From IMG/VR virus record IMGVR_UViG_3300007734_000596, positions 1 through 33,442 of that record: 33,442 nucleotides of DNA; one strand, given 5' to 3'. A program made the translations under genes and the position numbers. The notes under the pieces are model-generated. The model did no database searches. It had not been told where the DNA came from and saw only the letters and a program-made list of their open reading frames with translations. The stretch's first letter is position 1; each line of letters starts with the position of its first letter. This stretch comes from a virus. Shown here in pieces: positions 2,338 to 27,371 of this stretch.

Positions 2338-2592
2338 TTAGACCCAAAACGGGCGGTATCGGGGCGCCGCATCGGGCCGGGGGATGGTCCGCTCCTCAGC
2401 CCTGACGGCTTCGATGTGGGCGGCGATGGTGGCCAGAGCCGAAGAATCGGGAGCGGCGCTGTGGGCGCAAGCGAGCACGCGATCGCAAGCGGCGACAACA
2501 TTGGAGTTCCCGGCGGCGGCCATCCGGCGGCGGAGAACCCGGATCGTGGCGGTGTTCATGTCGATGGAGGCGAAAGCGTCGGCGCGGTCCAT
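2338..2592 (-). CDS. Unknown small protein, 84 aa (first gene of module copy 1)
   Basis: Start ATG 2592 follows CCGGAGCACACC. Predicted mostly helical (MDRADAFASIDMNTATIRVL, RRMAAAGNSNVVAACDRVLA, ALATIAAHIEAVRAEERTIP). No family recognised. It is the first gene after copy 1 of the repeated promoter-leader module (2633-2703). An overlapping frame starting at ATG 2635 begins MSGADNNP, like the leader peptide of copy 2, but here it runs into this gene in another frame and does not stop at the start codon. Confidence 0.65.
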   Translation of the reverse strand: MDRADAFASIDMNTATIRVLRRRMAAAGNSNVVAACDRVLACAHSAAPDSSALATIAAHIEAVRAEERTIPRPDAAPRYRPFWV

Positions 2593-2632
2593 GGTGTGCT
2601 CCGGTTCGGCGGGGGTTGTTGTCGGCCCCGCT

Positions 2633-2703
2633 CATGTACTACATATACATTCGCGCTCCCCAGCCGTCAAGCGTTCGCCCCTCATCCGGCGCAAGATTCT
2701 TGC
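2633..2703 (-). promoter_or_regulatory. Promoter module, copy 1 (TTGACG-N17-TATATG-N6-ATGAG)
   Basis: On the minus strand: an upstream element AGAATCTTGC (about 2700), GAGGGGCG (2683-2676), 5 bp, TTGACG (2670-2665), 17 bp, TATATG (2647-2642), 6 bp and ATGAGCGGGGCC from 2635. The same order and spacings recur at 7406-7471 and 8858-8926. The -10 box sits where transcription would begin at or next to the ATG, which implies a leaderless transcript. Confidence 0.75.
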
Positions 2704-2729
2704 GGGCGCCGCGGGAAGGCCCACAACGA

Positions 2730-2781
2730 CGCGATCGCCGTGGTCCGCCCGGTCAACCTCCGGGGGAGCACAGCGATCGCG
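2730..2781. repeat. Long imperfect inverted repeat (stem-loop)
   Basis: CGCGATCGCCGTG (2730-2742) and CACAGCGATCGCG (2769-2781) are 12/13 complementary, and an inner CCCGG...CCGGG pair extends the stem. It lies between the 28-aa membrane gene (ends 2828) and promoter module copy 1, so it could insulate the two transcription units. No T-run follows on either strand. The rest of 2704-2827 shows nothing else. Confidence 0.6.
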
Positions 2782-2827
2782 GAGCCTTCGAGCGTGGGCT
2801 GTGAGGCAGCTAACCGACCCCGGCGGC

Positions 2828-2914
2828 TCAGCGCCACCAGCTCGGGCGGACGAGGCTGGCGGTGAAAACGAGGAGGGCGGTGAGCAGGACGGCGGCGAGG
2901 ATGGGGGAGGTCAT
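2828..2914 (-). CDS. 28-aa single-pass membrane micro-protein
   Basis: ATG 2914 to TGA 2828 encodes a 28-residue peptide: MTSP, an uninterrupted hydrophobic stretch (ILAAVLLTALLVFTASLV, 18 residues) and a basic, Trp-containing tail (RPSWWR). This is one transmembrane helix, likely N-out/C-in by the positive-inside rule. The start overlaps the previous stop as ATGA and has AAGGTG upstream. No family assigned. It is one of several micro-membrane proteins wedged between regulatory genes here, and the last gene before a large stem-loop. Confidence 0.65.
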   Translation of the reverse strand: MTSPILAAVLLTALLVFTASLVRPSWWR

Positions 2915-3549
2915 GGGGTCACCTTTTTGCGGTTGCGGGTTCGTTTGGGTAGCGGCTTGCCTATCAGGTGCGCCCGATAGACCTTCAACCGAGCGCGAGC
3001 GGTGCCCGCCTTCAAACCGACGGCGGCGGCGGCCTCGTTGATGGACAGGCCCTCCGCCGAGGTCAGCACGAAAAGTCGCATGGTCACCGGCTCGTGCTCG
3101 CGGCGAGTCGCGGCAATCCGAGCGGCGCGCGGGTCGAGGCCCAACCGGCGCCAGTTCCGGCGGAGCGTGTCCACAAGGCAGCCAATCTCGGCGGCGAGCT
3201 CGCCCGCGGTCACCCCGCCGGCGACGAAGCGAGCCCACGCGGCTCGGGCCACGTCCACGCGGAGCCCGTAGGGGGTGCAGCCGGCGGCGGCGCGCTTGGC
3301 CCGGAACGCCTCGGCGGCGGCGTCGATCTCGGCCTGCTTCGCCTTCGCCGCTTCCTGTCGGCGGACGTTGCCGCCACGATCGGCGGCGGGGCAGCACGGA
3401 AGATCGAGGCGCTTCCAAGCCTTGTGCAGCCCGCTTGGAGAGATCCCCAGCGGGGCCGCCAGCGTGTCGAGGGTCAGCAGCGGATCGGCCAGATAGGCGC
3501 GGTGGGCCTTTCGCGCGGCGGCGTGACTGAGTTTCTGTCCGGTCCTCAT
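2911..3549 (-). CDS. DNA-binding protein with three helix-turn-helix segments, 212 aa
   Basis: Three separate segments have the HTH pattern: residues about 24-49 (LDTLAAPLGISPSGLHKAWK), 112-137 (VTAGELAAEIGCLVDTLRRN) and 167-193 (LSINEAAAAVGLKAGTARAR). They are joined by basic helical linkers (an EAAKAKQAEIDAAAEAFRAK stretch) and followed by a very basic tail (PKRTRNRKK). Such a protein most likely binds DNA at an extended site as a regulator or replication/packaging accessory. The start at ATG 3549 overlaps the previous stop (ATGA). The 76 upstream codons in frame are antisense-like. It is coupled upstream to a ribbon-helix-helix gene and downstream to a micro-membrane protein. Confidence 0.7.
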   Translation of the reverse strand: MRTGQKLSHAAARKAHRAYLADPLLTLDTLAAPLGISPSGLHKAWKRLDLPCCPAADRGGNVRRQEAAKAKQAEIDAAAEAFRAKRAAAGCTPYGLRVDVARAAWARFVAGGVTAGELAAEIGCLVDTLRRNWRRLGLDPRAARIAATRREHEPVTMRLFVLTSAEGLSINEAAAAVGLKAGTARARLKVYRAHLIGKPLPKRTRNRKKVTP

Positions 3550-3719
3550 TGGGGCCGCTTGGCCGTGCCGATGGCTGCCCACTCGGCGACGATGCGAGAG
3601 AGGGGGACGCCGCGCCGCTGCGCCTCGGTGTGGGCCTCGGCGGAGAGGTCGGGCGGGAGGTAGACCGTGAGCTTGACGAGGTCGCGGGATGGGCGCCCGC
3701 GGGGCTTGGGGGCGGTCAT
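3546..3719 (-). CDS. Ribbon-helix-helix protein (Arc/CopG-like), 57 aa
   Basis: KLTVYLPPDLSAEAHTEAQR followed by GVPLSRIVAEW is a typical ribbon-helix-helix: a beta strand for the DNA groove and two helices for dimerisation. A basic arm (PKPRGRPSRD) precedes it. The start is ATG 3719, with GGGAGGTG upstream and an ATGA overlap with the previous gene, so the 6 extra codons are rejected. Likely a transcriptional repressor. It is a candidate, untested ligand for one of the palindromic operators in this window. Confidence 0.75.
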   Translation of the reverse strand: MTAPKPRGRPSRDLVKLTVYLPPDLSAEAHTEAQRRGVPLSRIVAEWAAIGTAKRPQ

Positions 3720-4084
3720 TGCACACCTCCCGGCCATCGGCCAAGGTCAATCGCGCACAGGCAGCACGCCTCGGCAAGCGTGGCGGACTCGTGCAACGTC
3801 AGCACAGCCTTTCCCGGCTGCTTCGAGACGAAAAGCCGGACTCGCCCCTCAGACGTTCGGCCCATGGTCCAGCCATCGCCGAGAAGGCGGAGGAAAACGC
3901 CGTCGGTGGCGCCTGAATAATCCATGAGGTCAGGCACCCACGGCCCGCGCGGATGGCTGGAACGAACCCACAGGATGCCGCGCTGTGACCTGCGCGGTTC
4001 CATCTTGTGTGATTCCGGCGCCGTGAAGCCCCAGCCCGGGAGGTCCATGGCGCGGCGGGCGGTTTCGATCTGCTCGGGGCTCAC
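3716..4084 (-). CDS. Unknown protein, 122 aa
   Basis: Start GTG 4084 follows GGGAGG at 5-bp spacing and overlaps the micro-protein stop as GTGA. Sequence begins VSPEQIETARRAMDLPGWGF. The centre (GVFLRLLGDGWTMGRTSEGR, VRLFVSKQPGKAVLTLHES) suggests a small beta-rich fold, followed by a Cys-containing helix (TLAEACCLCAIDL). No family recognised. It lies in a tightly coupled cluster with the ribbon-helix-helix gene. Confidence 0.65.
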   Translation of the reverse strand: MSPEQIETARRAMDLPGWGFTAPESHKMEPRRSQRGILWVRSSHPRGPWVPDLMDYSGATDGVFLRLLGDGWTMGRTSEGRVRLFVSKQPGKAVLTLHESATLAEACCLCAIDLGRWPGGVQ

Positions 4085-4152
4085 GACTGCCTCCCGGCGA
4101 AGAGCAGGACGACGAGCAGCGCAGCGATGGCGAGCAGGTGGAAGGGGCTCAC
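4081..4152 (-). CDS. 23-aa membrane micro-protein
   Basis: GTG 4152 to TGA 4081 encodes 23 residues: MSPFH, then LLAIAALLVVLLFAG and a polar RQS tail, i.e. one transmembrane helix. Both ends overlap neighbours by 4 nt (GTGA at the start and at the stop). This geometry matches the real genes around it and supports translation despite the length. Function unknown. It resembles the 28-aa product at 2828-2914 only in its architecture. Confidence 0.55.
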   Translation of the reverse strand: MSPFHLLAIAALLVVLLFAGRQS

Positions 4153-4571
4153 AGCCGACCCGCCGCCAGCGCGTCCACCTCGTGGCCGAGCAGAAAGATC
4201 GCGGGCCGCCCCTCGTGTTCATGCACCGCGGCCCACTTCTCGCACCACAAGGCCACGGGGCCCGCAAAGTGGGCGGGGCGGTCGCGGTAGCTCGTGGGCA
4301 GCGTCCGCGAGCCGACGACGGCCCCGCTCGAGCGGCGGAGGGTCACCGTCTTGTTGACGATCTTGAGCATGGCGGCCCGCTCGTCGCGGAAGCCGACCAC
4401 GAAGGCGGCCTCCGCGGCCACGGCGCCCAGCGCTGCGGCGCACTCGAGGGCGCTCGCCTCGCCGGTCTGGAACCACTGGGCGGCGGCGGCGTCGCAGTTG
4501 AGCGAGCCGCCCTGGGCGAAGCGAGCGCCCGCGGCGAGGGCTTGCTGGCGAGGGTCGGAGGGAGGGGACAT
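4149..4571 (-). CDS. Unknown protein, 140 aa
   Basis: Start ATG 4571 follows CCGGAGCCTCCG. The Pro/Arg-rich upstream extension is rejected. The N-terminus (SPPSDPRQQALAAGARFAQG) leads into an Ala-rich helix containing ALECAAALGAVAAEAAFVVG, then a basic segment (MLKIVNKTVTLRRSSGAVVG) and a polar C-terminus (FAGPVALWCEKWAAVHEHEG). No family recognised. It lies directly after the RecT-like gene, so a recombination accessory role is possible but unsupported. Confidence 0.65.
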   Translation of the reverse strand: MSPPSDPRQQALAAGARFAQGGSLNCDAAAAQWFQTGEASALECAAALGAVAAEAAFVVGFRDERAAMLKIVNKTVTLRRSSGAVVGSRTLPTSYRDRPAHFAGPVALWCEKWAAVHEHEGRPAIFLLGHEVDALAAGRL

Positions 4572-4629
4572 CGGAGGCTCCGGGGGGAGGGAAGCGGGCA
4601 CCGCGGCTGCGGGCACTTGGTGGGGTGGG

Positions 4630-5415
4630 TCAGATCTGCGGCGCGGGGTTCGCCTCTTCGGGCGGGATGTCGGCGGGGTCGAAGGCGGCGGGCTGGCGGT
4701 TGGTGGCCTGGACCTCGACGCGCGGCTGCTCGGCGATGGCACGGGGCTCAGCGCGAGGCGCGCGGCGGACGGTGGCCGAGCTGACCACCTCGCCCGTACC
4801 CATGTCCACGACGGCGAGGTCTTCGGCCTCCACATCGGTCATGCCGCCCATCAGCACGTCCGGGCAGGTCCGGCGGATCAGCATCGTGGCGGCGCGGTAG
4901 CAGAGCATCTGCTCGCCGAGGGCGCGGCCGGAGTATTTTTCATTCGCCGTCCAGCCCTCAATGATCGCGTCTTCCATCGAGACGGTGACTTTCACGGTCT
5001 TTCCGCTCTGGGCATCCACCGCCCACGCGGTCACGGTGATGTTGGGCACCGTCGAGTCGCGTCGGTTCTTGTTTGGCAGTCGGGTGCCGTCGCCTTCCAC
5101 GTCGAACTGGATTCGACCCTTGAACGCGCCGGAAGCGTTCGCCCGGCCGATCATGAACTGCGCCGACCACGAGGCGCGACCCTTCACAAGGTACAGCGAT
5201 TGCATGACGAGCAACGGAGAGATCCGAAGCAGGTCGGCGTACTCGAAGGCGACGATACAGTCTGCCACCTTGCCGAAGAAGTGAGCGGGGATGATTTCCG
5301 CCTCTGCAAAAGCCTTCGCCTTGCGGTACATGAGGTTGAACGCAATGTCCGCGTCGGACATGGGCCGCCCCATGGGGGCGGGTTGAGGGGCGGGCTGAAT
5401 GGGGGTGTCGGACAT
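4630..5415 (-). CDS. RecT-like single-strand annealing protein, 261 aa
   Basis: Residues 20-100 match the RecT/Bet-type phage recombinase pattern: a helical N-terminus (ADIAFNLMYRKAKAFAEAEI), then FFGKVADCIVAFEYADLLRI, SPLLVMQSLYLVKGRASWSA and FMIGRANASGAF. A beta-rich core with TAWAVDAQSGKTVKVTVSME follows. The C-terminus is acidic and disordered (PAAFDPADIPPEEANPAPQI), as in many annealing proteins. RecT proteins anneal complementary ssDNA produced by a partner exonuclease, and the YqaJ-type exonuclease is directly upstream in the same operon. ATG 5415 has GAGG at 7-bp spacing. ATG 5421 overlaps the upstream stop (ATGA) but has its ribosome site too close, so the start could be either. Confidence 0.75.
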   Translation of the reverse strand: MSDTPIQPAPQPAPMGRPMSDADIAFNLMYRKAKAFAEAEIIPAHFFGKVADCIVAFEYADLLRISPLLVMQSLYLVKGRASWSAQFMIGRANASGAFKGRIQFDVEGDGTRLPNKNRRDSTVPNITVTAWAVDAQSGKTVKVTVSMEDAIIEGWTANEKYSGRALGEQMLCYRAATMLIRRTCPDVLMGGMTDVEAEDLAVVDMGTGEVVSSATVRRAPRAEPRAIAEQPRVEVQATNRQPAAFDPADIPPEEANPAPQI

Positions 5416-5417
5416 AG

Positions 5418-6314
5418 TCATTCCTCACTGGTGTCGGATTTATCGAATCCATGAGCCGCCAGAAATGGCGACCCACGCTGATACTGGACCTGCACGAATG
5501 ACCGAGAGCCCGCGAACAGGCGCCGGTCACCGATGGTCTGCATGATCTCCTGTCCGAGCGCATCGGCCTCGGACTTTGCCGCGGCGGCGGCCCTCTTCGT
5601 GGCTCGCCATTCGGCGACACGTTGAAGTATATACCCGTCCGGGTCCGCCCGCAAGCGCTTTGCCGGAACCGGCCCGATCTGGAGCGCCAGCCATCGCGCA
5701 GCGGATCGCCCACCGTCGAAGGCCGGCGGGAGGCCAGTCAGCATGTGCGCGGCGTACCACTCTTCGACGATCGAGAGGTGCCGGGCGGCCTCTTTGCGGG
5801 CGGCGGCGTGCCAGTTGAAGCCCCGGAGCATGTAGGGCGATTGGCCTCGGGCAGCGCGGGAATGGCTCCAGATCGGGAACTCGACGCGCTCGATCCGGCG
5901 GCCCTCTTCCTCCGCGAGCCTGGCATACCATGACCCCTGCACGACGTAGCCCGCTGGGATGTCCTCCTCTTCGTCGAGATACCAGATCCCGTCCTGTAGG
6001 CAGGTCTTCGGGTCGAGCACGTAGGGCCCGGCGATGCCGTCGAGGTGCCCCACCTGCCACCCGCGGCGGATCACGGGCGAGCGCTCCAGGGTGAGCCCGG
6101 CGCCGTGCTCCCGCATCCACCAGTCGAGCAGGACGGGCTCCAGGGTGAGTCCGGTGGTGAACAGGGCCGGAACCGGCGCGGCCTCGTCTCGCTCGACCCC
6201 GTGCGCGGCGGCCCACACGTCCCAGGGCGACGAGTAGTACGGCTCCCCATCATGGTCGCAGACCAGCGCCGCCGCCGCGGTCCCGCCGATCTCCCACGGC
6301 GACCGATCGCTCAC
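5418..6314 (-). CDS. YqaJ-type (lambda-exonuclease-like) PD-(D/E)xK nuclease, 298 aa
   Basis: The catalytic pattern of phage recombination exonucleases is visible: Glu59 (GLTLEPVLLDWW), Asp92 (VGHLDGI), D101-P-K103 (VLDPKT) and a later Gln motif (YVVQGSWYA, about residue 126). Family members digest one strand of dsDNA 5'-to-3' and load the paired annealing protein, here the RecT-like product encoded next. The length is normal for YqaJ proteins with a helical C-terminal extension (AEWRATKRAAAAAKSEADAL). Start GTG 6314 has GGGGAGGT upstream and overlaps the previous stop (GTGA). The 76 in-frame upstream codons are Arg-rich shadow. Confident as a PD-(D/E)xK nuclease. Confidence 0.85.
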   Translation of the reverse strand: MSDRSPWEIGGTAAAALVCDHDGEPYYSSPWDVWAAAHGVERDEAAPVPALFTTGLTLEPVLLDWWMREHGAGLTLERSPVIRRGWQVGHLDGIAGPYVLDPKTCLQDGIWYLDEEEDIPAGYVVQGSWYARLAEEEGRRIERVEFPIWSHSRAARGQSPYMLRGFNWHAAARKEAARHLSIVEEWYAAHMLTGLPPAFDGGRSAARWLALQIGPVPAKRLRADPDGYILQRVAEWRATKRAAAAAKSEADALGQEIMQTIGDRRLFAGSRSFVQVQYQRGSPFLAAHGFDKSDTSEE

Positions 6315-6535
6315 GGCTCGACCTCCCCGGCGCCGCACGGGCAGGGGTAGGTGTCGGTGCAGCCCCGATCCGACCCGTCGCACTGGCCACCGTGGCGGGC
6401 GCAGCCTCGGACGGTCCCGGTGCCCTCGCAGACCTCGCACGGCCCGGGGTCGTCGGTCGTGTCGCGCTCCCACGTCCCGGCGGGCTCCCCGTCGGCGGTG
6501 CCGTAGCCGTGGCAGGCAGCGCACAACGGCATCAT
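6311..6535 (-). CDS. DnaJ-like zinc-finger small protein, 74 aa
   Basis: CAACHGYGTADGE, then CEVCEGTGTV and CARHGGQC/CPCGAG: repeated CxxCxGxG elements like the zinc-binding repeats of DnaJ, with further Cys/His pairs. This indicates one or two small zinc sites but no J-domain. It begins with two consecutive ATGs (6535, 6532), and the first overlaps the upstream stop as ATGA. Such small proteins are frequent in phage early operons, and their targets are unknown. It sits just upstream of the exonuclease in the same coupled run. Confidence 0.7.
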   Translation of the reverse strand: MMPLCAACHGYGTADGEPAGTWERDTTDDPGPCEVCEGTGTVRGCARHGGQCDGSDRGCTDTYPCPCGAGEVEP

Positions 6536-6942
6536 GGCGCACTTCGCAGCGTGGCCAGCACGCGCAGCCCGTCGGCGGTGGCGGTCATCATGCCGGCCTT
6601 GGTTTGGAGGAGGCCCTGCAGCTCCAGCCGGTCAAGAGCGCCGGCCGTGGTCCGCTGGAGGGCGGCGGAGCGGCGACGCTGATCGCCGAGGTAGCAGAGC
6701 AGATCGGCGTCTCCATCGGCGAGGATCGGCGGGGCGCCGGCCGCGAGGCGCGAGGCGGGCTCTTTGAGGAGGGTCAGGATTTCGGACAACTCGGCTACGG
6801 TGAGCTCTACGTGAGCCCCGGCGGTGTCCGAGAGGCGCCGGGCGGCCCAATGGCGGTGGCGCCCGAGCGCCGCGGAGAGGGCAGCGAGGGACGGGTGGTG
6901 CAGGAGGATCAGCGCGTGGAGGCGCTGGAGGTCGGTGGACAT
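6532..6942 (-). CDS. Unknown helical protein, possibly winged-helix, 136 aa
   Basis: Start ATG 6942 is preceded by CGGAGTCATC. Mostly helical: STDLQRLHALILLHHPSLAA, LSAALGRHRHWAARRLSD, VELTVAELSEILTLLKEPAS. The C-terminal part GALDRLELQGLLQTKAGMMT followed by TADGLRVLATL resembles the recognition helix and wing of a winged-helix domain. I would call it a possible DNA-binding protein and no more. It overlaps the next gene by ATGA and is separated from the upstream gene by a UUCG-capped hairpin. Confidence 0.6.
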   Translation of the reverse strand: MSTDLQRLHALILLHHPSLAALSAALGRHRHWAARRLSDTAGAHVELTVAELSEILTLLKEPASRLAAGAPPILADGDADLLCYLGDQRRRSAALQRTTAGALDRLELQGLLQTKAGMMTATADGLRVLATLRSAP

Positions 6943-6978
6943 GATGACTCCGAAGGGCCCGCGGCTGCGGGAGGTTGG

Positions 6979-6994
6979 GGCCCCCGAAGGGGCC
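6979..6994 (-). terminator. Hairpin with C(UUCG)G tetraloop between genes
   Basis: On the minus-strand transcript GGCCCC-UUCG-GGGGCC forms a perfect 6-bp GC stem closed by a C(UUCG)G tetraloop, one of the most stable RNA hairpins. There is no U-tract, so it may act as a partial terminator or a 3'-end protector for the 119-aa gene transcript, just past its stop at 7002. Confidence 0.5.
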
Positions 6995-7001
6995 GGGAGG
7001 G

Positions 7002-7361
7002 TCAGGCGCGGAGGGCACGCTGAAGTTCGGCGGTCATCCGGTCGCTGTGCTTGAAACCGTCCGAGACGGCGAAGATGCTGATCTGCCCGGCGATGACATC
7101 GAAGTACGCATCGGCGTAGGCAAGGGCGGCGCGGAACCCGGTGCCCCACTTAGAGATCGTGACCATGCCGAGGGTGTCAAGTTCGATGATCTTCTCGGGG
7201 CGGGTGGACTTCGCCGGGATGGTGCCGGGAGCGCCAGGGTAGACCAGGATCGTCCCGTTGCCGGCGCAGGTGAAGCAGCGGCCAGCCGCGATGTGGGCGT
7301 AGGGGGCGAAATATTTGGAGCCGAGGCACTTGGGGCAGGTGACTTCAATCTTGGCGTTCAT
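7002..7361 (-). CDS. Zinc-finger protein of unknown function, 119 aa
   Basis: The N-terminal 40 residues hold CPKCLGSKYF and CFTCAGNGTI, a DnaJ-like CxxCxG pair that probably binds one zinc. The remainder (KIIELDTLGMVTISKWGTGF, ALAYADAYFDVIAGQISIFA) looks like a small alpha/beta domain with a helical end. It is the first structural gene after promoter module copy 2. Its start ATG 7361 has CGGAGCCCACC upstream and overlaps the stop of a 15-codon leader (ATGA). Function unknown. Confidence 0.75.
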   Translation of the reverse strand: MNAKIEVTCPKCLGSKYFAPYAHIAAGRCFTCAGNGTILVYPGAPGTIPAKSTRPEKIIELDTLGMVTISKWGTGFRAALAYADAYFDVIAGQISIFAVSDGFKHSDRMTAELQRALRA

Positions 7362-7405
7362 GGTGGGCTCCGTTCGGCGGCGGGGTTGTTGTCGGCCCCG
7401 CTCAT
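7358..7405 (-). CDS. 15-codon leader peptide (module copy 2)
   Basis: ATG 7405 to TGA 7358 reads MSGADNNPAAERSPP. The ATG is exactly 6 bases after the TATATA -10 box, so the mRNA probably starts at or next to it (leaderless). The stop overlaps the next start as ATGA. The last seven residues (AAERSPP) are identical to those of the leader in copy 3, but this coincides with the DNA that forms the next gene's ribosome site, so peptide selection is not proven. Confidence 0.5.
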   Translation of the reverse strand: MSGADNNPAAERSPP

Positions 7406-7471
7406 GGTTTCTATATACCGTGCCCTCCCGTAGCCGTCAAGTAAACGCCCCTCAAATAGTCGCGAACGCTT
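7406..7471 (-). promoter_or_regulatory. Promoter module, copy 2 (TTGACG-N17-TATATA-N6-ATGAG)
   Basis: GAGGGGCG (7453-7446), 5 bp, TTGACG (7440-7435), 17 bp, TATATA (7417-7412), 6 bp, ATGAG at 7405. The upstream GCGACTATTT resembles GCACTATTA in copy 3. It drives the 119-aa zinc-finger gene and probably the genes beyond it leftward. The rest of the gap to the 333-aa gene (7472-7499) shows nothing. Confidence 0.75.
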
Positions 7472-7499
7472 GAACGTCGCCAGAATCCGCCGGTTGAAC

Positions 7500-8501
7500 C
7501 TACGCCGGACCCAACCGCCCGATCAAGTCCAGCGCCCCGCGGAGGGTGTCGCGCGACCGGCGAGCGTCGGCGGCGGAAGCGGCGGCCTCGCGGCTGAGTA
7601 GGTCACGCTCGGCGGCGGTGTCGGTGAGTCGGCGGGTCAGCGCGGCGACCTCCTCGCGGCTGGCGTCGAGCTGCGACTCCAGCACGGCGATCCGGCGGCG
7701 CTGGGCCTCGCAGTCGGTGGGCGTGCGCGCGGCGGCCCCGGCCTCGAGCTGCTCGATCCTCGATCGCTGCGCCATCCCGAGCAAGGAGGGCTCGGGGACG
7801 GGTCCGGGCAGGCGATTGGCGATCCGAAGTCCGTGATCGTGGCCATCAGCGGCGGCGCTCCCCACATCGATCCACTCGACCGGCGGATCGCCAAGCGCGG
7901 CCAGCAGATTGTTGAGGTACTCGGCGAAGGCCGCCGCTGCGGCGAAGTGACGGCACGGATGCTCGGGCGCCTCCGCCGGGAGGTAGGCGTGCGAGGTCTG
8001 CGCCCGCGGCGTGACCGCGCCACCGTCGATCGCGCCGTCGTCTTCGTCGAGGAGGGTGTAGACCGGCTGAGTCACAAGGGGCGACGGTGCCACCTCCGCC
8101 GCGGGCTCATCCTCCGGCCGCCCGACGCGCTCGACGGTGGCGGCGTCCACGGTCTGCACGCGCCCGCCATCCCAGGTCACCTCGACAGTGGAGCCGTAGA
8201 CCGCCTCGACGCTGCCGAGCAGCCCCCCGGAGCGGACGCGGTCGCCCTCCTGGTAGCGCACGGGGGCGATGGCGGGCTCCACAGCCGCGCTCGGCTCGGT
8301 GGTGGTGTCGGCGGTGGGGGCCGCCTCGGCGACGGGCTCAGCGGGCCGCGGGGGCCGCCCTCCGCCGGGACATCGGGCATCGCGGGGGCCGTGGGCGATC
8401 ACAAGGCCGCCGGCGATCAGGGTGAGCTCGGTCGAGCACTCGGCGCAGACGCCTCGGCCGGCGAAGGTGCGGGTGCGGGAGGGTTTTTCGGTGGTGTCCA
8501 T
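7500..8501 (-). CDS. Unknown 333-aa protein: zinc ribbon, disordered linker, coiled coil
   Basis: Three parts are visible. Residues 18-50 hold a probable zinc ribbon (GVCAECSTELTLIAGG and DARCPGG). Residues about 50-165 are Ala/Pro/Glu-rich and probably disordered, with a small KOW/SH3-like patch (VRYQEGDRVRSGGLLGSVEA) where such beta barrels often bind nucleic acid. Residues about 240-325 form a long coiled coil (RIEQLEAGAAARTPTDCEAQ, RRRIAVLESQLDASREEVAA). Start ATG 8501 follows CCGGAGCCCCAA. No complete family match. A nucleic-acid-binding scaffold is a guess from architecture. Confidence 0.65.
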   Translation of the reverse strand: MDTTEKPSRTRTFAGRGVCAECSTELTLIAGGLVIAHGPRDARCPGGGRPPRPAEPVAEAAPTADTTTEPSAAVEPAIAPVRYQEGDRVRSGGLLGSVEAVYGSTVEVTWDGGRVQTVDAATVERVGRPEDEPAAEVAPSPLVTQPVYTLLDEDDGAIDGGAVTPRAQTSHAYLPAEAPEHPCRHFAAAAAFAEYLNNLLAALGDPPVEWIDVGSAAADGHDHGLRIANRLPGPVPEPSLLGMAQRSRIEQLEAGAAARTPTDCEAQRRRIAVLESQLDASREEVAALTRRLTDTAAERDLLSREAAASAADARRSRDTLRGALDLIGRLGPA

Positions 8502-8552
8502 TTGGGGCTCCGGTGCCCGGGCCTCTCGACCCGGGGCGGTGGTTCAGTTGAG

Positions 8553-8813
8553 TCAGACGAGATAGAACGTCCAGTCGCCGTCGCCGCTGAGGTACACGTT
8601 CTGAGTGGCGCGGTGGACGATGCCCCAGCCGCTTTCGGTGCAGCCGATCGCCGAGCCGTCGGGGAAGACGATCACGGTGTCGTCGCGGTCGGTGGTCTCG
8701 TGGGTCACCCCGCCGTGCTCGGTCGAGACGGCGGACAGCGTGCGGCCGTCGCTGAGGCGGAAGAACTGACCGTCGTCGTTGAAGATGGCGGACACGGTGA
8801 GGGAGGCGTTCAT
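8553..8813 (-). CDS. Unknown beta-rich small protein, 86 aa
   Basis: MNASLTVSAIFNDDGQFFRL, then DDTVIVFPDGSAIGCTESGW and QNVYLSGDGDWTFYLV suggest an all-beta fold. No motif recognised. It is the first gene of promoter module copy 3. Start ATG 8813 has CGAACGGAGCCCACC upstream (identical to that at 7361) and overlaps the leader stop. The C-terminus is hydrophobic but too short for a membrane span. Confidence 0.7.
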   Translation of the reverse strand: MNASLTVSAIFNDDGQFFRLSDGRTLSAVSTEHGGVTHETTDRDDTVIVFPDGSAIGCTESGWGIVHRATQNVYLSGDGDWTFYLV

Positions 8814-8857
8814 GGTGGGCTCCGTTCGGCGGCGGCTGGTTGGTGTGCCGCCCTCAT
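8810..8857 (-). CDS. 15-codon leader peptide (module copy 3)
   Basis: ATG 8857 to TGA 8810 reads MRAAHQPAAAERSPP. It has the same length, start position (6 nt after the -10 box) and ATGA overlap as the leader at 7358-7405, although the first half of the peptide differs. The retained length and overlap despite sequence divergence are mild evidence that translation matters. Confidence 0.5.
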   Translation of the reverse strand: MRAAHQPAAAERSPP

Positions 8858-8926
8858 GGAATCTATATACACCTGCCCTCGCTCCACGTGCAAGGGTCCG
8901 CCCCTCTAATAGTGCGAGATTCTTTG
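8858..8926 (-). promoter_or_regulatory. Promoter module, copy 3 (TTGCAC-N18-TATATA-N6-ATGAG)
   Basis: AGAATCTCGCACTATTA then GAGGGGCG (8906-8899), 5 bp, TTGCAC (8893-8888), 18 bp, TATATA (8869-8864), 6 bp, ATGAG at 8857. It has the weakest -35 of the three, and the spacer is one base longer. The upstream AGAATCT matches copy 1. Bases 8927-8957 up to the lysis genes show nothing recognisable. Confidence 0.7.
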
Positions 8927-8957
8927 CGTCCGGTTGAAAGTCGGCCGCCTACCTACG

Positions 8958-9593
8958 TCAGATCCGCGGGCGCCGCCGGACCCCGCCACGCTCGTCGGTG
9001 CCCTCGTCGGGAGGCAGGACGGCGCGCGGGGCCTCGTGGTGGTGCAGGTCGAGCCGCGGCGCACCCTCGGGGATCGTGTGGACGAGCTCGATCCTCACCT
9101 TGACCCCCTTGGAGATGATCCCGTTGATCTGCCGCAAAAGGAGCCCGGCCACGAGGATGCAGGTGGCCCAGCTCGGGGTCTGCCCGCCGGCCACGGAGAG
9201 AAGCAAAGACATCAGCGGGTCAGCGGTGGGCGCGGCCGCGACGGCCACCGGCTCTGTGGCGTAGGCCGGCGTGATCGCGTGGAGCACTCCGAGGGCCAGC
9301 GCGGAGGCCGAGAGGAGGATCGTCCAGCGCCAGCTCCACCGCTCAGCGATCGAGAGGGCGGTGAGACCCACGATCGGCAGTCCGAGGCCGATCACAAGGG
9401 TGGCGATCAGGCCGCGCGCTGACTCCCAGGTGGGCATCAGGGGGCGGAGCGCGACGACTACGACGACGGCGGCAACGGCAATAAAGGCGTTGATACGCCA
9501 GCCAGTGATCAGGTACGGCCACGCGATCGGCACGAAGCACATGCCGAGGATCGCCAGCGGTCCAAGCGCCATGGGCAGATATTCGAGGGTCAT
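8958..9593 (-). CDS. Multi-pass membrane protein of lysis cassette (holin candidate), 211 aa
   Basis: About five hydrophobic segments are visible: LGPLAILGMCFVPIAWPYLI, INAFIAVAAVVVVVAL, IATLVIGLGLPIVGLTAL, WTILLSASALALGVLHAI, and later SWATCILVAGLLL. A polar, His-rich and basic C-terminal tail follows. It lies directly after the endolysin and two one-span micro-proteins, all overlapping, so a holin or other membrane-lesion role is a reasonable inference. It is larger than classical holins. Start ATG 9593 is preceded by AGAGGATTGGGCG and overlaps the previous stop (ATGA). The 10 upstream codons are rejected. Confidence 0.6.
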   Translation of the reverse strand: MTLEYLPMALGPLAILGMCFVPIAWPYLITGWRINAFIAVAAVVVVVALRPLMPTWESARGLIATLVIGLGLPIVGLTALSIAERWSWRWTILLSASALALGVLHAITPAYATEPVAVAAAPTADPLMSLLLSVAGGQTPSWATCILVAGLLLRQINGIISKGVKVRIELVHTIPEGAPRLDLHHHEAPRAVLPPDEGTDERGGVRRRPRI

Positions 9594-9691: not shown

Positions 9692-9780
9692 GGGCTGCCC
9701 TGGAGCCGGTCAGCGGCGGCGGTCGCGACGAGGGCCGCGAGGAGGAGCCCGGCGGCGAGGTGGCGGAGGAGGGATGTCAC
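9688..9780 (-). CDS. 30-aa membrane micro-protein of lysis cassette
   Basis: GTG 9780 to TGA 9688 encodes 30 residues: MTSLLRH, LAAGLLLAALVATAAA and the polar tail DRLQGSP. It is either one transmembrane helix or a cleavable signal peptide (ATAAA-D) leaving a tiny periplasmic peptide. It overlaps the endolysin stop and the next micro-protein start (GTGA twice). It may be a lysis accessory protein, but there is no homology support. Confidence 0.5.
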   Translation of the reverse strand: MTSLLRHLAAGLLLAALVATAAADRLQGSP

Positions 9781-10178
9781 CGGAGCTCCCAATGGGGCCG
9801 ATCGACGAACGAGGTCCAATCGCCGCCCCACGACAGGGTATGCCCGCCGCGCTCGGCCTCGGTCATCGTCTCCCACGTCGCCTTGATGTGGCGGGCGATC
9901 GGCGGATAGTCGGGCGCGAACCACGAGATCGAGCCGCGGACCCACGGAGCCACGTCCACCGCGAGCGAGGGCGATTGGTTGTGCTTCGACTTCGGGTAAT
10001 GGAGCCGCGAGGCACCGCTTTTGACGGCCGCTTCCTGCTCCTCCTTGGTGCGATGCCCGCACACGATCATCCAGTCCAGCCCCGCCGGGCAGGTGGTCAT
10101 CGCCCGGTGCATGAGGGTCTGTAGCACCGGATGGCAGGTCGCGAGCCTGCCGAGACTGGTAGCCCCGTAGGTGCTCAC
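9777..10178 (-). CDS. Endolysin, M15-family peptidase, 133 aa
   Basis: The peptidase M15 signature is clear: SKHNQSPSLAVDV (His66 and Asp75, zinc ligands) and the distal DRPHWEL (His129), with the fold-typical MIVCGHRTKEEQEAAVKSG before them. M15 phage endolysins (T5-like) cut the L-alanyl-D-glutamate or a D-Ala bond of peptidoglycan stems, releasing progeny at the end of infection. The protein is one domain with no signal peptide or cell-wall-binding domain, so it needs a holin to reach the wall, consistent with the membrane genes downstream. Start GTG 10178 overlaps the previous stop (GTGA), and AAGG lies 8 bases upstream. Length matches the family. Confidence 0.9.
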   Translation of the reverse strand: MSTYGATSLGRLATCHPVLQTLMHRAMTTCPAGLDWMIVCGHRTKEEQEAAVKSGASRLHYPKSKHNQSPSLAVDVAPWVRGSISWFAPDYPPIARHIKATWETMTEAERGGHTLSWGGDWTSFVDRPHWELR

Positions 10179-10441
10179 GACGACGCCTTCACCATTCGAG
10201 CGCGGGCCCGGCCGACCATCGCCACGATCCGCCGACGGAGCACGCGGAGGATGATCCCGTCCAGACGCTCCAGCATCGGGCCGGCGCCGGGGACGTAGCC
10301 GAGGGGCAAAGCGGCGTCGGCGAGCTCGATCAGCATGTCGGCGATCGCCTCGTCGGTGAGGTCGCCCACGTCGCCAGCGAAGACCGCGGCGATGTCGTCG
10401 CGGGCCTCGTCGAGGATCGCGCGGAGGGCATCGCGCCTCAC
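10175..10441 (-). CDS. Unknown small protein, 88 aa
   Basis: Start GTG 10441 overlaps the upstream stop (GTGA). The sequence VRRDALRAILDEARDDIAAV, LTDEAIADMLIELADAALPL, then VPGAGPMLERLDGIILRVLR and a basic tail is mostly amphipathic helix. There is no strong transmembrane segment. It resembles small proteins between tail and lysis genes in many siphoviruses, but I cannot name it. Confidence 0.6.
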   Translation of the reverse strand: MRRDALRAILDEARDDIAAVFAGDVGDLTDEAIADMLIELADAALPLGYVPGAGPMLERLDGIILRVLRRRIVAMVGRARARMVKASS

Positions 10442-10623
10442 TGGCCACCCCCGGCCGCGATCACGGCGGGGTCTTCGAGCAGCCGGAGCCGGATGGCCTC
10501 CAGAGCGGCGGCCCACGCGGCAGGGTCGGAGAGGGAGCCGAATGGAACGGCGACGGACACGGTGATCATTCGCGCACCTTCGGCAGGCTGGTCGGGGATG
10601 CCGATAGAGTATATTTCAGACAC
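10438..10623 (-). CDS. Unknown small protein, 61 aa (or 43 aa)
   Basis: Two starts are credible. GTG 10623 has TGAGGTG at 6-bp spacing (MSEIYSIGIPDQPAEGARM...). ATG 10569 has AAGGTG at 7 bp and begins MITVSVAVPFGSLSDPAAWA. The shared part ends with a helix (ALEAIRLRLLEDPAVIAAGG). It lies 8 bp after the tail-fibre gene and overlaps the next gene as GTGA. Function unknown. Confidence 0.6.
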   Translation of the reverse strand: MSEIYSIGIPDQPAEGARMITVSVAVPFGSLSDPAAWAAALEAIRLRLLEDPAVIAAGGGQ

Positions 10624-15326: not shown

Positions 15327-17525
15327 TCACCCCCTAACCGAGCCGGGAGGTAGCGACAGGCGCCGGCCTCCCGTGCCCATGTGCTGCGAGAGCTTGCGTA
15401 CCACCTCGTCAGCGGTGCCAATCATCAGCCCGGGGGGCATGTGGATATGGACCGATCCGCCGCCGCCCGCTGCGCCCGCAAGCCCGCCGCCGCCCGCCGG
15501 AGAAGGGGCCGCGAACATCGCCGCCTGGGGGCGGTAGGTGGGGCCCATGCGCTCGTTGCGCGACTGGTAGGCGCCCGGGTTGTACGTGTCGGTGTTGGCA
15601 ATCCCGAGCGTTACCCACTCGAGCGCCGTGTCGCCGACCTTCTTCCGAAACTGCGTCTTTTCCTCGTCGGTGCGCGTGAAAAAGTCGCGGATTGCGGCCC
15701 ACACGTCGCGCCACCAGTCGCGGAGGGCGTCCTTGATTCCGCCCCATCCGCCCATTCCGTCCCACCACTGGCGGATCGCGTCCCCGAAGGTGATCGCCTC
15801 CCACAGCCGCTTGCCGAGGTCGGCCGCGGCTCCGAGTAGCCCGTCTCTGAGCCCTGTCACGATCTGGGGGATGGCCTTGACCAGCGCCACGGGGATCTCG
15901 ACGGCGAGCATCGGGATCAACTCGCCGATGAGCGGGCCGAGCTCCTTGAGCCCCTTGACCACCCCCATCGCCGTAGCCTCGATCTGCTTTGCCGTAGCGT
16001 CCGCTCCCTGAGCCCCCAGCGCGCCGAGGCCCTGCACCGAGGCCATGATTGCCGCCGTCATCGGGTCCTTACCCATGACCGCGCCAAGCCCCCCCATGAG
16101 GTCGCCGGAGAGCGCCGAGCCAACCCCCTGACCGATCCGCTGCGTCCGCTGGTCGAGCACGCGCTGAGCATCGGCGGCCATCTTCTCGAATTCGGCCTGG
16201 AGTTTCGGAAGGGCCTCGGTCCCGGCGTCCTCGAATCCCTTCTCCAAAGCCGCCTGAAACGCCTTCATGTCTATGTCGGATAGGGCCAGCTCCAACTGAT
16301 TGACGTATCGTGCCGCATCCGTCTGTGATATTTCCCCAAGAAAGGCGGCCTGCCGAACGGCTCGCATCGTCTCGTTGATCGCATCCTTCGCCTGGTCCTC
16401 CTCGTTTCGGATGGCAGGGGCGAGTTTTTCGACCTGTGCCACGATGGCAGCGCCTGCCGCGAGTCGCGCCTTGTCACTTTCGGCATTTCGCCGGGCAAGC
16501 TCCCGCTCGGCATCGCTCAGCTCTTTCAGGGCATCCTTTCGGCCCTTCTTGTTGTTCTTGTCGTCCTCGGCCGCCTTTCGCTCCCACTCCGCCCAATCAA
16601 CTGTTGCGGCGGCGGCGTTGGCGATCTCATGCTCAACAGCTTGAAGCGCCTCCTTTTTTTTCGCCAACTCCTCGTTTCCCTTACGGATCGCGGTGTTGCC
16701 TTCTGCGATTGCGGTCGAGTTGGAAAGGTTGTTAACGCCGACTTTTGCAGACTGGACACTCTTTCGGCTTTCCGCGATCTCAGTTTCCACCCGTTCCACT
16801 TCGGCCGCCGCCAACAGGCGCATCTCGCCGAATTTTCGCTCTGCCGCAAACTGCGCCTCTGATGTAGTGAGGGCGCTTTTATCGAATTCGCCGGCCATGA
16901 TTCCGGCTTTTACGATGTCGATTCGTTGCGAGTCACGGAGCTTTTCAAAGGCGGTTTGTGCAGTGGTCGCGGCTGTCGACGCCTTTGCGGCGGCCTTCTC
17001 GGCGTCCTCAAGCTGCCCCTTGAAATACAGGAAGGCCCCGCCCGCCGCCAGCACAGCGGGGGCCAGCGCCAGCACGACGCCGCCCAATCCGGCAGCGGGG
17101 CCGAGGGCCGCTTTGAGCACGTCCGCGCTCTTTGCGGCGCCGCCGAACGCTTCGGCAATCTGCGGCCCCTGTTGCGCGAGCACCATCAGCGGGTTCATTC
17201 CGCCGGCCAGCGACGTGAACACGTCCGCCAACTGAAAGCGGAGGTTCTGCCCGGCCGATGCCGCGGACTTCATCCCGACCGCTGCCGCCTCGGCCGCCGG
17301 AGCGACCGCACGCGCCGCCTGAGCGGTCACCGCCGACTGACGGCCGGCCTCTTTGACGGCTTCGGCTTGTTCCGTTGCCGCTGCGGTGATGGACTTCGCC
17401 GAGGCCGACGCCGCATTTTCCGCCTCGGCCGCCTTGGTGACTTCGGCCGTGACCTGAGCGTAGGCACGGGCGACGGCGTCAGCGCCTTTGACCTCCAGCC
17501 CAAATACGACCGGTTCACCCGCCAT
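15327..17525 (-). CDS. Tail length tape measure protein, 732 aa
   Basis: Residues near 95-130 hold FQLADVFTSLAGGMNPLMVL and AQQGPQIAEAFGG, the hallmark segment of lambdoid-type tape measures. Long Ala-rich coiled coils (residues 15-90 and about 200-340) and hydrophobic stretches (AGLGGVVLALAPAVLAAGGA; LIGELIPMLAVEIPVALVKA) also fit. The protein is stretched inside the tail during assembly and sets tail length, at roughly 0.15 nm per residue in known systems. The start at ATG 17525 overlaps the chaperone-T frame by 11 nt. The C-terminus has GGGGLAGAAGGGGSVHIHMP, a flexible linker and beta segment. It has the longest coding capacity after the terminase, as is usual. Confidence 0.9.
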   Translation of the reverse strand: MAGEPVVFGLEVKGADAVARAYAQVTAEVTKAAEAENAASASAKSITAAATEQAEAVKEAGRQSAVTAQAARAVAPAAEAAAVGMKSAASAGQNLRFQLADVFTSLAGGMNPLMVLAQQGPQIAEAFGGAAKSADVLKAALGPAAGLGGVVLALAPAVLAAGGAFLYFKGQLEDAEKAAAKASTAATTAQTAFEKLRDSQRIDIVKAGIMAGEFDKSALTTSEAQFAAERKFGEMRLLAAAEVERVETEIAESRKSVQSAKVGVNNLSNSTAIAEGNTAIRKGNEELAKKKEALQAVEHEIANAAAATVDWAEWERKAAEDDKNNKKGRKDALKELSDAERELARRNAESDKARLAAGAAIVAQVEKLAPAIRNEEDQAKDAINETMRAVRQAAFLGEISQTDAARYVNQLELALSDIDMKAFQAALEKGFEDAGTEALPKLQAEFEKMAADAQRVLDQRTQRIGQGVGSALSGDLMGGLGAVMGKDPMTAAIMASVQGLGALGAQGADATAKQIEATAMGVVKGLKELGPLIGELIPMLAVEIPVALVKAIPQIVTGLRDGLLGAAADLGKRLWEAITFGDAIRQWWDGMGGWGGIKDALRDWWRDVWAAIRDFFTRTDEEKTQFRKKVGDTALEWVTLGIANTDTYNPGAYQSRNERMGPTYRPQAAMFAAPSPAGGGGLAGAAGGGGSVHIHMPPGLMIGTADEVVRKLSQHMGTGGRRLSLPPGSVRG

Positions 17526-24988: not shown

Positions 24989-25824
24989 CAGTCCCTCACG
25001 TTTGGTACGGTGCAACACCGGCAGTTGACGACCTCGGCCGCCTTGTCGAAGTCCCCGGGGAATCGCCCCGTGTCGCCCGCGTTGGGCCCGGTCGTGATCG
25101 TGAATCGGCCGCCCGGGGGAACGGTTTGCCCGTCCATCGCGACGTGAGACGGTCGGGTAGCCCGGTCAATCGCCGAACTCCACTCCAGATCGAAGTCAAC
25201 GCCGGCCGCCACGGCGGTCTGATAGCCGATGCCGTGGCCTTCGTTGACGGCCTTGGTGCTTTCGGTGCGGGCAATCCGAAGGGCGCGAGCAGGGCCGAAG
25301 AGACCACCGCTGTCCAGTTGGATCGTCGCCGTCATCTCGCCGATCGTCTGCCCCTCTCGGAGCCCCGTCCGCACGACATCGGCAACAAAGTCCTTGGCCT
25401 CTTGATTGACCCGAACGATCTCTGCCCCGATGATCTGGTCGCTCGGGTCGATGCTGGGATCGTAGGTGGCGCGCGGGAGGAGAGAGGCGATCCATTCGGT
25501 GCCCTCCCTGACCGAGGCGCGAATCCCGGGATCGATGATCTCGCCGAACGCAGCATCCTCGCCCGCAAAGAGCCGGGCCACGATGTCGTCGATGAGGTCG
25601 CGCCGCACGATCGACCGCGCCACTCCGAGCGCCGCGATCACCGGGTCGCTCTCGAAGCGGGCGATGATGCGGGCCTTTTCGGCGCGAAGGTAGCCGCGGA
25701 CGGCGACGAACTGGCGGCGCTCGGCGGGGCCCTGGACCTTGCGCACCCATGCCCGCCACGTCGGCTTGCGAGCGCGCTCGACACGGAAGGGAAGCACCTG
25801 CCCGGCCGGCTGGGCGACCATCAC
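24988..25824 (-). CDS. Mu gpF-like minor head protein, 278 aa
   Basis: The C-terminal half carries the family core: RIARTESTKAVNEGHGIGYQ, DLEWSSAIDRATRPSHVAMD, GQTVPPGGRFTITTGPNAGD, and FPGDFDKAAEVVNCRCCTVP (NCRC motif). SPP1 gp7/Mu gpF proteins are injected with or bound to the portal and aid DNA delivery. The N-terminus is basic and helical (RVERARKPTWRAWVRKVQGP). Two overlapping start options exist: GTG 25824 (GTGA with the portal stop) or ATG 25821 (TGATG). It lies directly after the portal, as usual. Confidence 0.85.
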   Translation of the reverse strand: MMVAQPAGQVLPFRVERARKPTWRAWVRKVQGPAERRQFVAVRGYLRAEKARIIARFESDPVIAALGVARSIVRRDLIDDIVARLFAGEDAAFGEIIDPGIRASVREGTEWIASLLPRATYDPSIDPSDQIIGAEIVRVNQEAKDFVADVVRTGLREGQTIGEMTATIQLDSGGLFGPARALRIARTESTKAVNEGHGIGYQTAVAAGVDFDLEWSSAIDRATRPSHVAMDGQTVPPGGRFTITTGPNAGDTGRFPGDFDKAAEVVNCRCCTVPNVRD

Positions 25825-27314
25825 GCGGCCTCATCGGCGGCGAGGCTGTCGGCCACAGACTGGAGCGAGGCGATCGCCGCGTCGATGTCCGAGCGGTCAG
25901 GGTCGCCGTCGAGGGCGTCCAGAGCCGCCTGGATCTCGTCGCGCATCGTAGCCACGTCGGGCGACGGGGTGCGGTCGGCGGCGGGCTCCTGAGCGGCGCC
26001 AGGGGCCTCGGCGACGGGGGCGGGAGCGGTGAACGTGAGGCCAGCGGCGCCGGGGTAGCCTTCGAGCGCGTAGGCCGCGGCAGGTTCAAGCCCGTTGGCG
26101 ATGTGCTTCGCCACCCGGTCAAGCTGTAGCGAGCGATCCTCTTGGAGAGCTCCCACACCGGAGTAGTCGTGTCCGATGGCGACCGGCGGAACGCATCGGG
26201 CGCCGACCTCCGCCCAGCCGTCTTCGATATCGGCGGCGGTGCCCTGTAGGCCCTGCCAATAGGTCTTGGACTGCTCACGAGCCGTGGCGTAGTTCGCCGT
26301 TGCGAGGCCGAGGATCGTCGGCGGCACGCCGGTAACGGCCATGACCGCTTCGCGCGTGACTGCCGATGTCTTCGTGGTCTCCATTTCGCGCGGAGACCAG
26401 CCCAGAACCTCGATCTCGAATGACCCGTCCAGCACGGCCACGCCGCCGTCACGAGCGGTAAAGACCTTGTTCAGCGTGTTGGCAGCGGCGGCCACCTGCC
26501 GGTCATTGACGACGCCGCCGGAGACAGGCTTTGCGATGGCGTCCGGCCGCCCGCGTTCGGCGGAGAGGGCTTGTCGGCGAGTCGTCGCAAGGTCAGACGA
26601 GATCACCGCGTCCAACGGCTCCATCGCGCCCGAGCCGAAAGACCCGGTCGGCCCGGTGTCCCACGTCGCCCCTCGGATGTGGACAATGCCGGCGCCCGTG
26701 CCGTTCTTGATGGCGTCCGGGTGCGACAGGGGGAGCCACGCGGGGCCGCCCCACTGGTCACCGAGCTGGTAGGCGGCGGGTCGGCCTTGGGCGTCCTCGA
26801 TGATCTGGACCCGGTCAGGGGGCCAGCGGATCAACTCCTTCGGCTGCCCGCGATAGAAGACCGCATGGATGTAGGCGTTTCCGCCGGTCTCCAGATCAAG
26901 CTGGAGCTGCTTTCGGAACCGCCGCCCCGACACGCCAGTGGAGGGCCGTGCCAATCGGGCAAGGAGCGGGTGAGACTGGACCTCATCGCCACGCTCGGCC
27001 TCGTTGTTGACCTGATACGCTTTGATCGGCAGGCTTGACAGGTCGCGGGTCTTCGACTGCAACGCCGCATAGACCCACGGGTGAGACCGGAAGGCCGACA
27101 GCGCGCGGGCGGGGTCGTAGGTCGGCGACTGAGGGACGCCCGAGGCGAAGCCCACCCCGACTGGCGGGGGCGGCGTCTTCTGGGCGTCCACCGTCGGGAT
27201 CGTGATCGAGCCGAACGACAGGGCACGCGCCACAGCAGCCAGCGCCCGGCCGTACCACGTCGGCGAGACGGACAGGGCGACAGGTGCGGGCGCGGGCGCG
27301 GGAGTCTCAGCCAT
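25821..27314 (-). CDS. HK97-family portal protein, 497 aa
   Basis: ALSAFRSHPWVYAALQSKTR, DLSSLPIKAYQVNNEAERGD, PLLARLARPSTGVSGRRFRK, NAYIHAVFYRGQPKELIRWP and later TGVPPTILGLATANYATARE QSKTYW are characteristic of HK97-type portals. The portal is the dodecameric ring through which terminase pumps DNA. The C-terminus is Ala/Pro/Asp-rich and disordered. There is no ribosome site before ATG 27314. Instead TAGCCT lies exactly 6 bases upstream, so the mRNA is probably leaderless. Confidence 0.9.
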   Translation of the reverse strand: MAETPAPAPAPVALSVSPTWYGRALAAVARALSFGSITIPTVDAQKTPPPPVGVGFASGVPQSPTYDPARALSAFRSHPWVYAALQSKTRDLSSLPIKAYQVNNEAERGDEVQSHPLLARLARPSTGVSGRRFRKQLQLDLETGGNAYIHAVFYRGQPKELIRWPPDRVQIIEDAQGRPAAYQLGDQWGGPAWLPLSHPDAIKNGTGAGIVHIRGATWDTGPTGSFGSGAMEPLDAVISSDLATTRRQALSAERGRPDAIAKPVSGGVVNDRQVAAAANTLNKVFTARDGGVAVLDGSFEIEVLGWSPREMETTKTSAVTREAVMAVTGVPPTILGLATANYATAREQSKTYWQGLQGTAADIEDGWAEVGARCVPPVAIGHDYSGVGALQEDRSLQLDRVAKHIANGLEPAAAYALEGYPGAAGLTFTAPAPVAEAPGAAQEPAADRTPSPDVATMRDEIQAALDALDGDPDRSDIDAAIASLQSVADSLAADEAA

Positions 27315-27320
27315 GGCGGG

Positions 27321-27371
27321 AGGCTACCGGCAGTTGGTCACGTTGTCAAGGGGCCCGTGACAAAGTGTCAC
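27321..27371 (-). promoter_or_regulatory. Leaderless portal promoter with 15-bp palindromic operator
   Basis: TTGACA (27349-27344), 17 bp, TAGCCT (27326-27321), 6 bp, ATG 27314. A 15-bp perfect palindrome GTGACA-AAG-TGTCAC (27357-27371) lies 7 bp upstream of the -35 and overlaps the terminase stop codon. The placement upstream of -35 would suit an activator. Confidence 0.7.

Follow-up and report, generated by a model that had tools for sequence, protein, structure and literature searches.

We have identified a module of about 125 bp that occurs in three diverged copies, all on the minus strand, in the 33,442-base virus record IMGVR_UViG_3300007734_000596 (GC 68%), the whole of which was analyzed and is referred to here as the window. 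The copies, designated c1 (2584..2707), c2 (7353..7479) and c3 (8805..8931), point to the gene starts at 2592, 7361 and 8813, respectively. With reasonable confidence, we read each of them as a phage promoter followed by a 5′ leader of its own, the three probably switching on three adjacent operons together. Co-regulation of the three units follows naturally from a common promoter-leader and is likely. This is a clean three-copy promoter set in a phage without a near relative in the collections searched, and it would mark three transcription units of the non-structural region.

Three copies of one module

All genes recognized by family searches lie on the minus strand of the window. They include a terminase (27368-29917; 849 aa), a portal protein (25821-27314), a tape measure protein (15327-17525) and an endolysin (9777-10448), and head and tail proteins were also recognized. 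Based upon this set of head, tail, terminase and portal genes, the window belongs to a tailed phage, uncultured and GC-rich. A search of 50,697 phage records with bases 1-25000 found no near relative at the DNA level. Distant relatives of the portal protein belong mostly to Arthrobacter and Gordonia phages and those of the terminase mostly to Pseudomonas and Arthrobacter phages, which makes an actinobacterial host plausible. Neither the family matches nor the phage hits listed cover the first ~380 residues of the terminase, which may represent a fused N-terminal part.

A preliminary description of this DNA had placed a recurring layout at 2592-2703, 7361-7471 and 8813-8926, and all three copies were indeed found there on the minus strand. 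The elements occur in a fixed order, namely GAGGGGCG, 5 bp, TTGAC or TTGCA, TATATR, 6 bp, ATGAG, the leader, CGGAGC and the ATG of the gene. Blocks that are invariant across the alignment, including GAGGGGCG, CTTG, GTATAT, CATGAG, CGGAGC and CACCATG, fall where a promoter and a ribosome site should have their elements. Farther upstream, AGAATCT is found in c1 and c3 and ACTATT in c2 and c3, c3 thus having both.

The similarity between the copies is far above chance. Pairwise alignments contained 85/131, 79/130 and 91/130 identical columns (~61-70% identity), with local alignment scores of 97 (c1/c2), 65 (c1/c3) and 109 (c2/c3). None of 2000 dinucleotide shuffles reached these scores, the largest shuffle score being 28-33, and among 3332 window tiles on both strands the best matches of each copy were the other two copies. 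When the -35 and -10 hexamers were masked, scores of 76, 55 and 93 were retained against shuffle maxima of 29-33 (1000 shuffles each). The similarity is therefore not limited to the -10/-35 consensus, which the preliminary description had named as one outcome that would undo its reading. A profile of the module matched the window three times at E values between 6e-32 and 7e-36 (c1, 5.7e-32; c2, 7.2e-36; c3, 7.1e-36); the next match had an E value of 0.68, and no fourth copy was found in the window by this search. The exact pattern TATATR-N6-ATGAG likewise occurs three times in the window, each time inside a module.

Putative promoter elements, downstream genes and candidate regulators

Putative promoter hexamers were located from the sequence and the alignment. 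In c1 (2642..2670), a -35 element TTGACG (2665-2670) is separated by 17 bp from a -10 element TATATG (2642-2647). In c2 (7412..7440), TTGACG (7435-7440) and TATATA (7412-7417) are also 17 bp apart, and in c3 (8864..8893) the spacing between TTGCAC (8888-8893) and TATATA (8864-8869) is 18 bp. The 16-18 bp spacing of sigma-70/SigA promoters fits all three copies, and the -35 elements of c1 and c2 are near TTGACA; that of c3 is weak. The -10 element of sigma-70/SigA promoters usually has A at position 2 and T at position 6, and all three modules have a purine at the latter position instead. A standard sigma-70 scan, which requires T at this last position, returned four sites in the window, with none of the three modules among them because their conserved hexamer is TATATR. 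A purine at the last -10 position would suit a promoter needing help. Sigma-54 promoters, for which the consensus is GG at -24 and GC at -12 with a distance of 10 bp, were considered and rejected: TTGC stands at the -12 place in c3 only, and c1 and c2 have TTGAC. In the mode of action that we propose, the TTGAC/TTGCA and TATATR hexamers would be recognized by host RNA polymerase, possibly assisted by a phage factor. The presumed first transcribed base is the A of ATGAG; it follows TATATR after a gap of 6 bp, and hence is the seventh nucleotide after the -10 element, in all three copies.

The first genes of the three units encode products of 84 aa (2338..2592, after c1), 119 aa (7002..7361, after c2) and 86 aa (8553..8813, after c3). 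No family was assigned to the first or the third, although high third-position GC supports coding of the latter. The 119-aa product has a small zinc-finger-like N-terminus with a weak, sub-cut-off match to Anti-TRAP/RtpA. It is similar there to the cysteine-rich zinc motif found in Anti-TRAP and DnaJ-like proteins, again below curated cut-offs. Pairwise comparison of the three products gave one alignment at an E value of 2.0 and none in the other two cases, in agreement with the preliminary description, in which the downstream genes were held to be unrelated. The unit after c2 contains recombination genes, encoding a RecE-like exonuclease (5418..6542; phrog_434, E 5e-13) and a RecT-like annealing protein (4630..5421; phrog_561, E 2.7e-49), and at its end the genes for proteins of 63 aa (3546-3737) and 212 aa (2911..3549). 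The modules are on the same strand as the genes, behind that for the endolysin and on either side of RecE/RecT, with c3 following the lysis region. This arrangement points to three consecutive operons of non-structural genes, which the same machinery would turn on. Early expression of these units may be supposed from their gene content and position, since RecE/RecT are in the second unit and the units follow the lysis gene.

The GAGGGGCG box lies 5 bp before the -35 element (c1, 2676..2683; c2, 7446..7453; c3, 8899..8906). As a sequence by itself it is not special: in this genome, which is GC-rich, the 8-mer is frequent, with 11 occurrences on both strands of the window, 3 of them in modules. 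Its place upstream of the -35 element would be an obvious one for a common regulator, and a factor bound there, centered ~45 bp upstream of the start, might help or block the polymerase. Along these lines, a phage repressor or activator could use the upstream boxes as operators, the 212-aa protein encoded just upstream of c1 being one example, and the three units could form an immunity or timing regulon. This possibility is a serious one, although we rate it below an even chance; it is compatible with the promoter-leader reading, to which it adds a regulator. The box is invariant at a fixed distance in all three copies, and the AGAATCT of c1 lies in a perfect inverted repeat (7+1+7; 2690..2704, minus strand) that may be an operator. 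However, the arms of this repeat are absent from c2 and kept only partly in c3. The 212-aa protein has a helix-turn-helix match (PF12840, E 1.6e-9) as well as weaker helix-turn-helix and sigma-70 region 4-like matches, from which we infer that it is a candidate regulator, but it has no match in phage records. Nor was a repressor or integrase recognized by family searches among the window proteins tested. The 63-aa protein appears ribbon-helix-helix-like by eye and has a sub-threshold Pfam match only.

The presumed leader and its 5′ reading frame

The presumed leaders begin with ATGAG and measure 43 nt in c1 (2593..2635) and 44 nt in c2 (7362..7405) and c3 (8814..8857). A strong GGAG ribosome site, 6 nt ahead of the ATG of the gene, would form the end of each. 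A possible hairpin is found in every leader (c1, 2609-2631; c2, 7380-7401; c3, 8831-8852), in which a 6-bp stem would begin at nucleotide 5 or 6, and thus 4-5 nt from the presumed 5′ end, and would enclose 10 or 11 nt of loop. The arms are shared by c1 and c2 and different in c3, and as evidence the hairpins amount to one independent case. Shuffled leaders gave the hairpin 19, 62 and 36 times per 5000, and folding z-scores of the leaders were weak (-0.26, -0.23 and -0.95). Stems of this geometry are present in 5.3% of the 66796 44-mers of the window and in 44 of the 730 that begin with ATG (~5-6%), and RNAalifold chose another register, with breaks. Because of this genomic background and the different register, the hairpin is suggestive only. 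No module had an Rfam match; two chance-level matches in 2400-9100 were both outside the modules. In E. coli and B. subtilis, 5′-terminal hairpins stabilize mRNAs (PMC3997798). The leaders are similar in that a possible stem lies no more than 5 nt from the presumed 5′ end and is followed by a ribosome site, and differ in that the stem is not clearly above the background of this GC-rich genome. If real, the hairpin might shield the mRNA end.

The ATG at the start of the leader may itself be functional, with ribosomes binding it in a leaderless fashion and translating a 15-codon peptide, and with a TGA/ATG overlap coupling translation of the gene. In its favor, the ATG occurs 7 nt after TATATR in all three copies, and in c2 (7358-7405) and c3 (8810-8857) it opens a 15-codon reading frame that ends exactly on the gene start, the TGA overlapping the ATG of the gene. 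There is also precedent in E. coli, where mRNAs led by a Shine-Dalgarno sequence and having a 5′-terminal AUG bind 70S ribosomes, some of these AUGs affecting the downstream gene (PMC4965119). The modules share with those mRNAs a presumed AUG at the transcript end together with a normal ribosome site, whereas the start point here is presumed from sequence and the stop/start overlap is absent in one of the three copies. That copy is c1, in which the leader is one base shorter and the ATG opens a 79-codon, out-of-frame reading frame that runs into the gene (2396-2635). The overlap in c2 and c3 is not statistically strong and counts once, as their DNA is identical there. The two peptides agree mainly in this last, identical part and are therefore not independent, and leaderless initiation would be expected to suffer from a hairpin lying 4-5 nt away from the AUG. 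On balance, we consider a functional 5′ AUG unlikely. If the AUG does form the end of the transcript, the modules would constitute a natural repeated test case for leaderless versus ribosome-site initiation on one mRNA.

A stronger form of this proposal is improbable in our estimation. It would hold that the non-standard TATATR -10 element and a GAGGGGCG activator box define a phage-specific promoter class, and that three operons are controlled, in their transcription as well as their translation, by a repeated dual-start leader combining AUG-first, leaderless initiation with a normal ribosome site.

Origin of the copies and comparison with other phages

In the preliminary description, the module was taken to be a mobile or duplicated regulatory cassette. 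Duplication remains the better part of that statement, as the degree of identity between copies noted above is most likely explained by a duplication long ago, after which the elements were conserved, presumably through selection on them. A mobile or recent origin is very improbable. Three copies do stand before unrelated genes, but they are only ~61-70% identical and share one orientation. They cease to resemble each other where the functional parts end, upstream at about the AGAATCT/ACTATT element and downstream at the first codons of the gene, and have no longer flanks in common. Neither the search of the window nor exact-pattern searches of the collections turned up a further copy.

Also very improbable is that the leader acts on RNA polymerase as an antitermination element similar to put of phage HK022, whose putL lies just downstream of PL (PMC9378689). 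Like put, the modules have a leader element adjoining phage promoters; it is repeated, directly follows the presumed start and could form a hairpin of equal size in each copy. But put RNA is ~70 nt long with two stem-loops, and the single 6-bp stem here, its weak folding scores and its background frequency, and the lack of an Rfam match in the modules speak against membership.

The promoter-leader reading has its nearest known counterpart in the ESAS/SAS promoter set of cluster K mycobacteriophages, and literature searches on repeated promoters and leaders in actinobacteriophages brought up nothing closer among the papers listed. In Adephagia, a cluster K phage, a motif of 46-47 bp is described in seven copies, its SigA-like hexamers being separated by 17-18 bp (PMC11373665, PMC3203893), and the cluster K motif copies precede different genes together with a putative SigA-like promoter (PMC11373665). 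The modules are like ESAS and SAS of Adephagia and TM4 (PMC3203893, PMC11373665) in being copies of a putative promoter motif with conserved sequence before the start codons of unrelated genes. As to the general kind, a multi-copy promoter-leader set of a phage, the window does show similar putative promoter regions ahead of genes that are unrelated. SAS is defined in cluster K by GGGATAGGAGCCC just before start codons, with up to two (rarely three) deviations. The best sites in c1, c2 and c3 had 5, 4 and 4 mismatches, and none of the 13 window sites with three mismatches or fewer was in a module. What defines ESAS is the association of a SigA-like promoter with inverted repeats that are imperfect and 15-17 bp long. 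With perfect 6-mer arms within 40 nt scored, only the leader stem of c2 and c3 and the 7+1+7 repeat of c1 were found, and no promoter inverted repeat of this form common to the copies. The modules further differ from ESAS/SAS in their fixed GAGGGGCG box, TATATR and 5′ ATGAG. Since the SAS consensus was absent and no ESAS repeat showed up in the form scored, the modules resemble the ESAS/SAS set in plan and, judged by sequence, do not appear to be members of it.

The preliminary description had also proposed looking for the module upstream of further genes, both in this genome and in relatives. Beyond the three copies in the window, no convincing one was found in the relatives examined. The exact promoter pattern matched 16 stretches in viral contigs, none with the leader on reading, and these were taken as chance; promoter pattern plus ATGAG was absent from genome contigs. 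A distant blastn search of c2 against phages gave short matches only (E 0.1 or worse). Single-protein scans with TerL, portal and RecT in viral contigs, and with RecT in genome contigs, confirmed no relative. The alignment scans took the best 80 of 482 TerL relatives and the best 80 of at least 557 RecT relatives, the latter having up to 47% identity among the matches listed. The module profile yielded no convincing copy in the stretches examined at loci of the listed TerL and RecT relatives. Of the weak matches, the alignments of those in L107, L085, L099 and L111 were read, and the match in L107 lies inside a long ORF. Among 13 GC-rich RecT relatives (L145-L157), a looser promoter with a 5′ ATG occurred in none, and a repeat search of five of these found no promoter-like repeat and other repeats in two. 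As no relative with the module was found, its conservation is that of three copies in one contig.

Leader patterns matched 12 and 18 stretches in viral contigs, and on reading only one of these was also promoter-leader-like. It is a single exact site (L031 1437-1490, minus strand, by pattern scan) in IMGVR_UViG_3300001815_000026 (L031), a 38.9-kb phage with baseplate proteins. The site has TTGCAA, 17 bp, TATATA, 6 bp and ATGAG, followed by CCGAACGGAG and an ATG. In contrast to the modules, it has no GAGGGGCG box at the same distance and no matching hairpin by eye, and its 5′ ATG shares the reading frame of the gene. Its profile match (20.5 bits, E 6e-4 among the loci compared) is not independent evidence, because the contig was selected by this very pattern. 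No match was found between its proteins and those of the window. Were the dual-start class to exist, this look-alike would represent an independent or horizontally shared case. The same contig also contains direct repeats at 295-624, in which 15 overlapping copies follow one another in 15-base steps inside a long minus-strand ORF.
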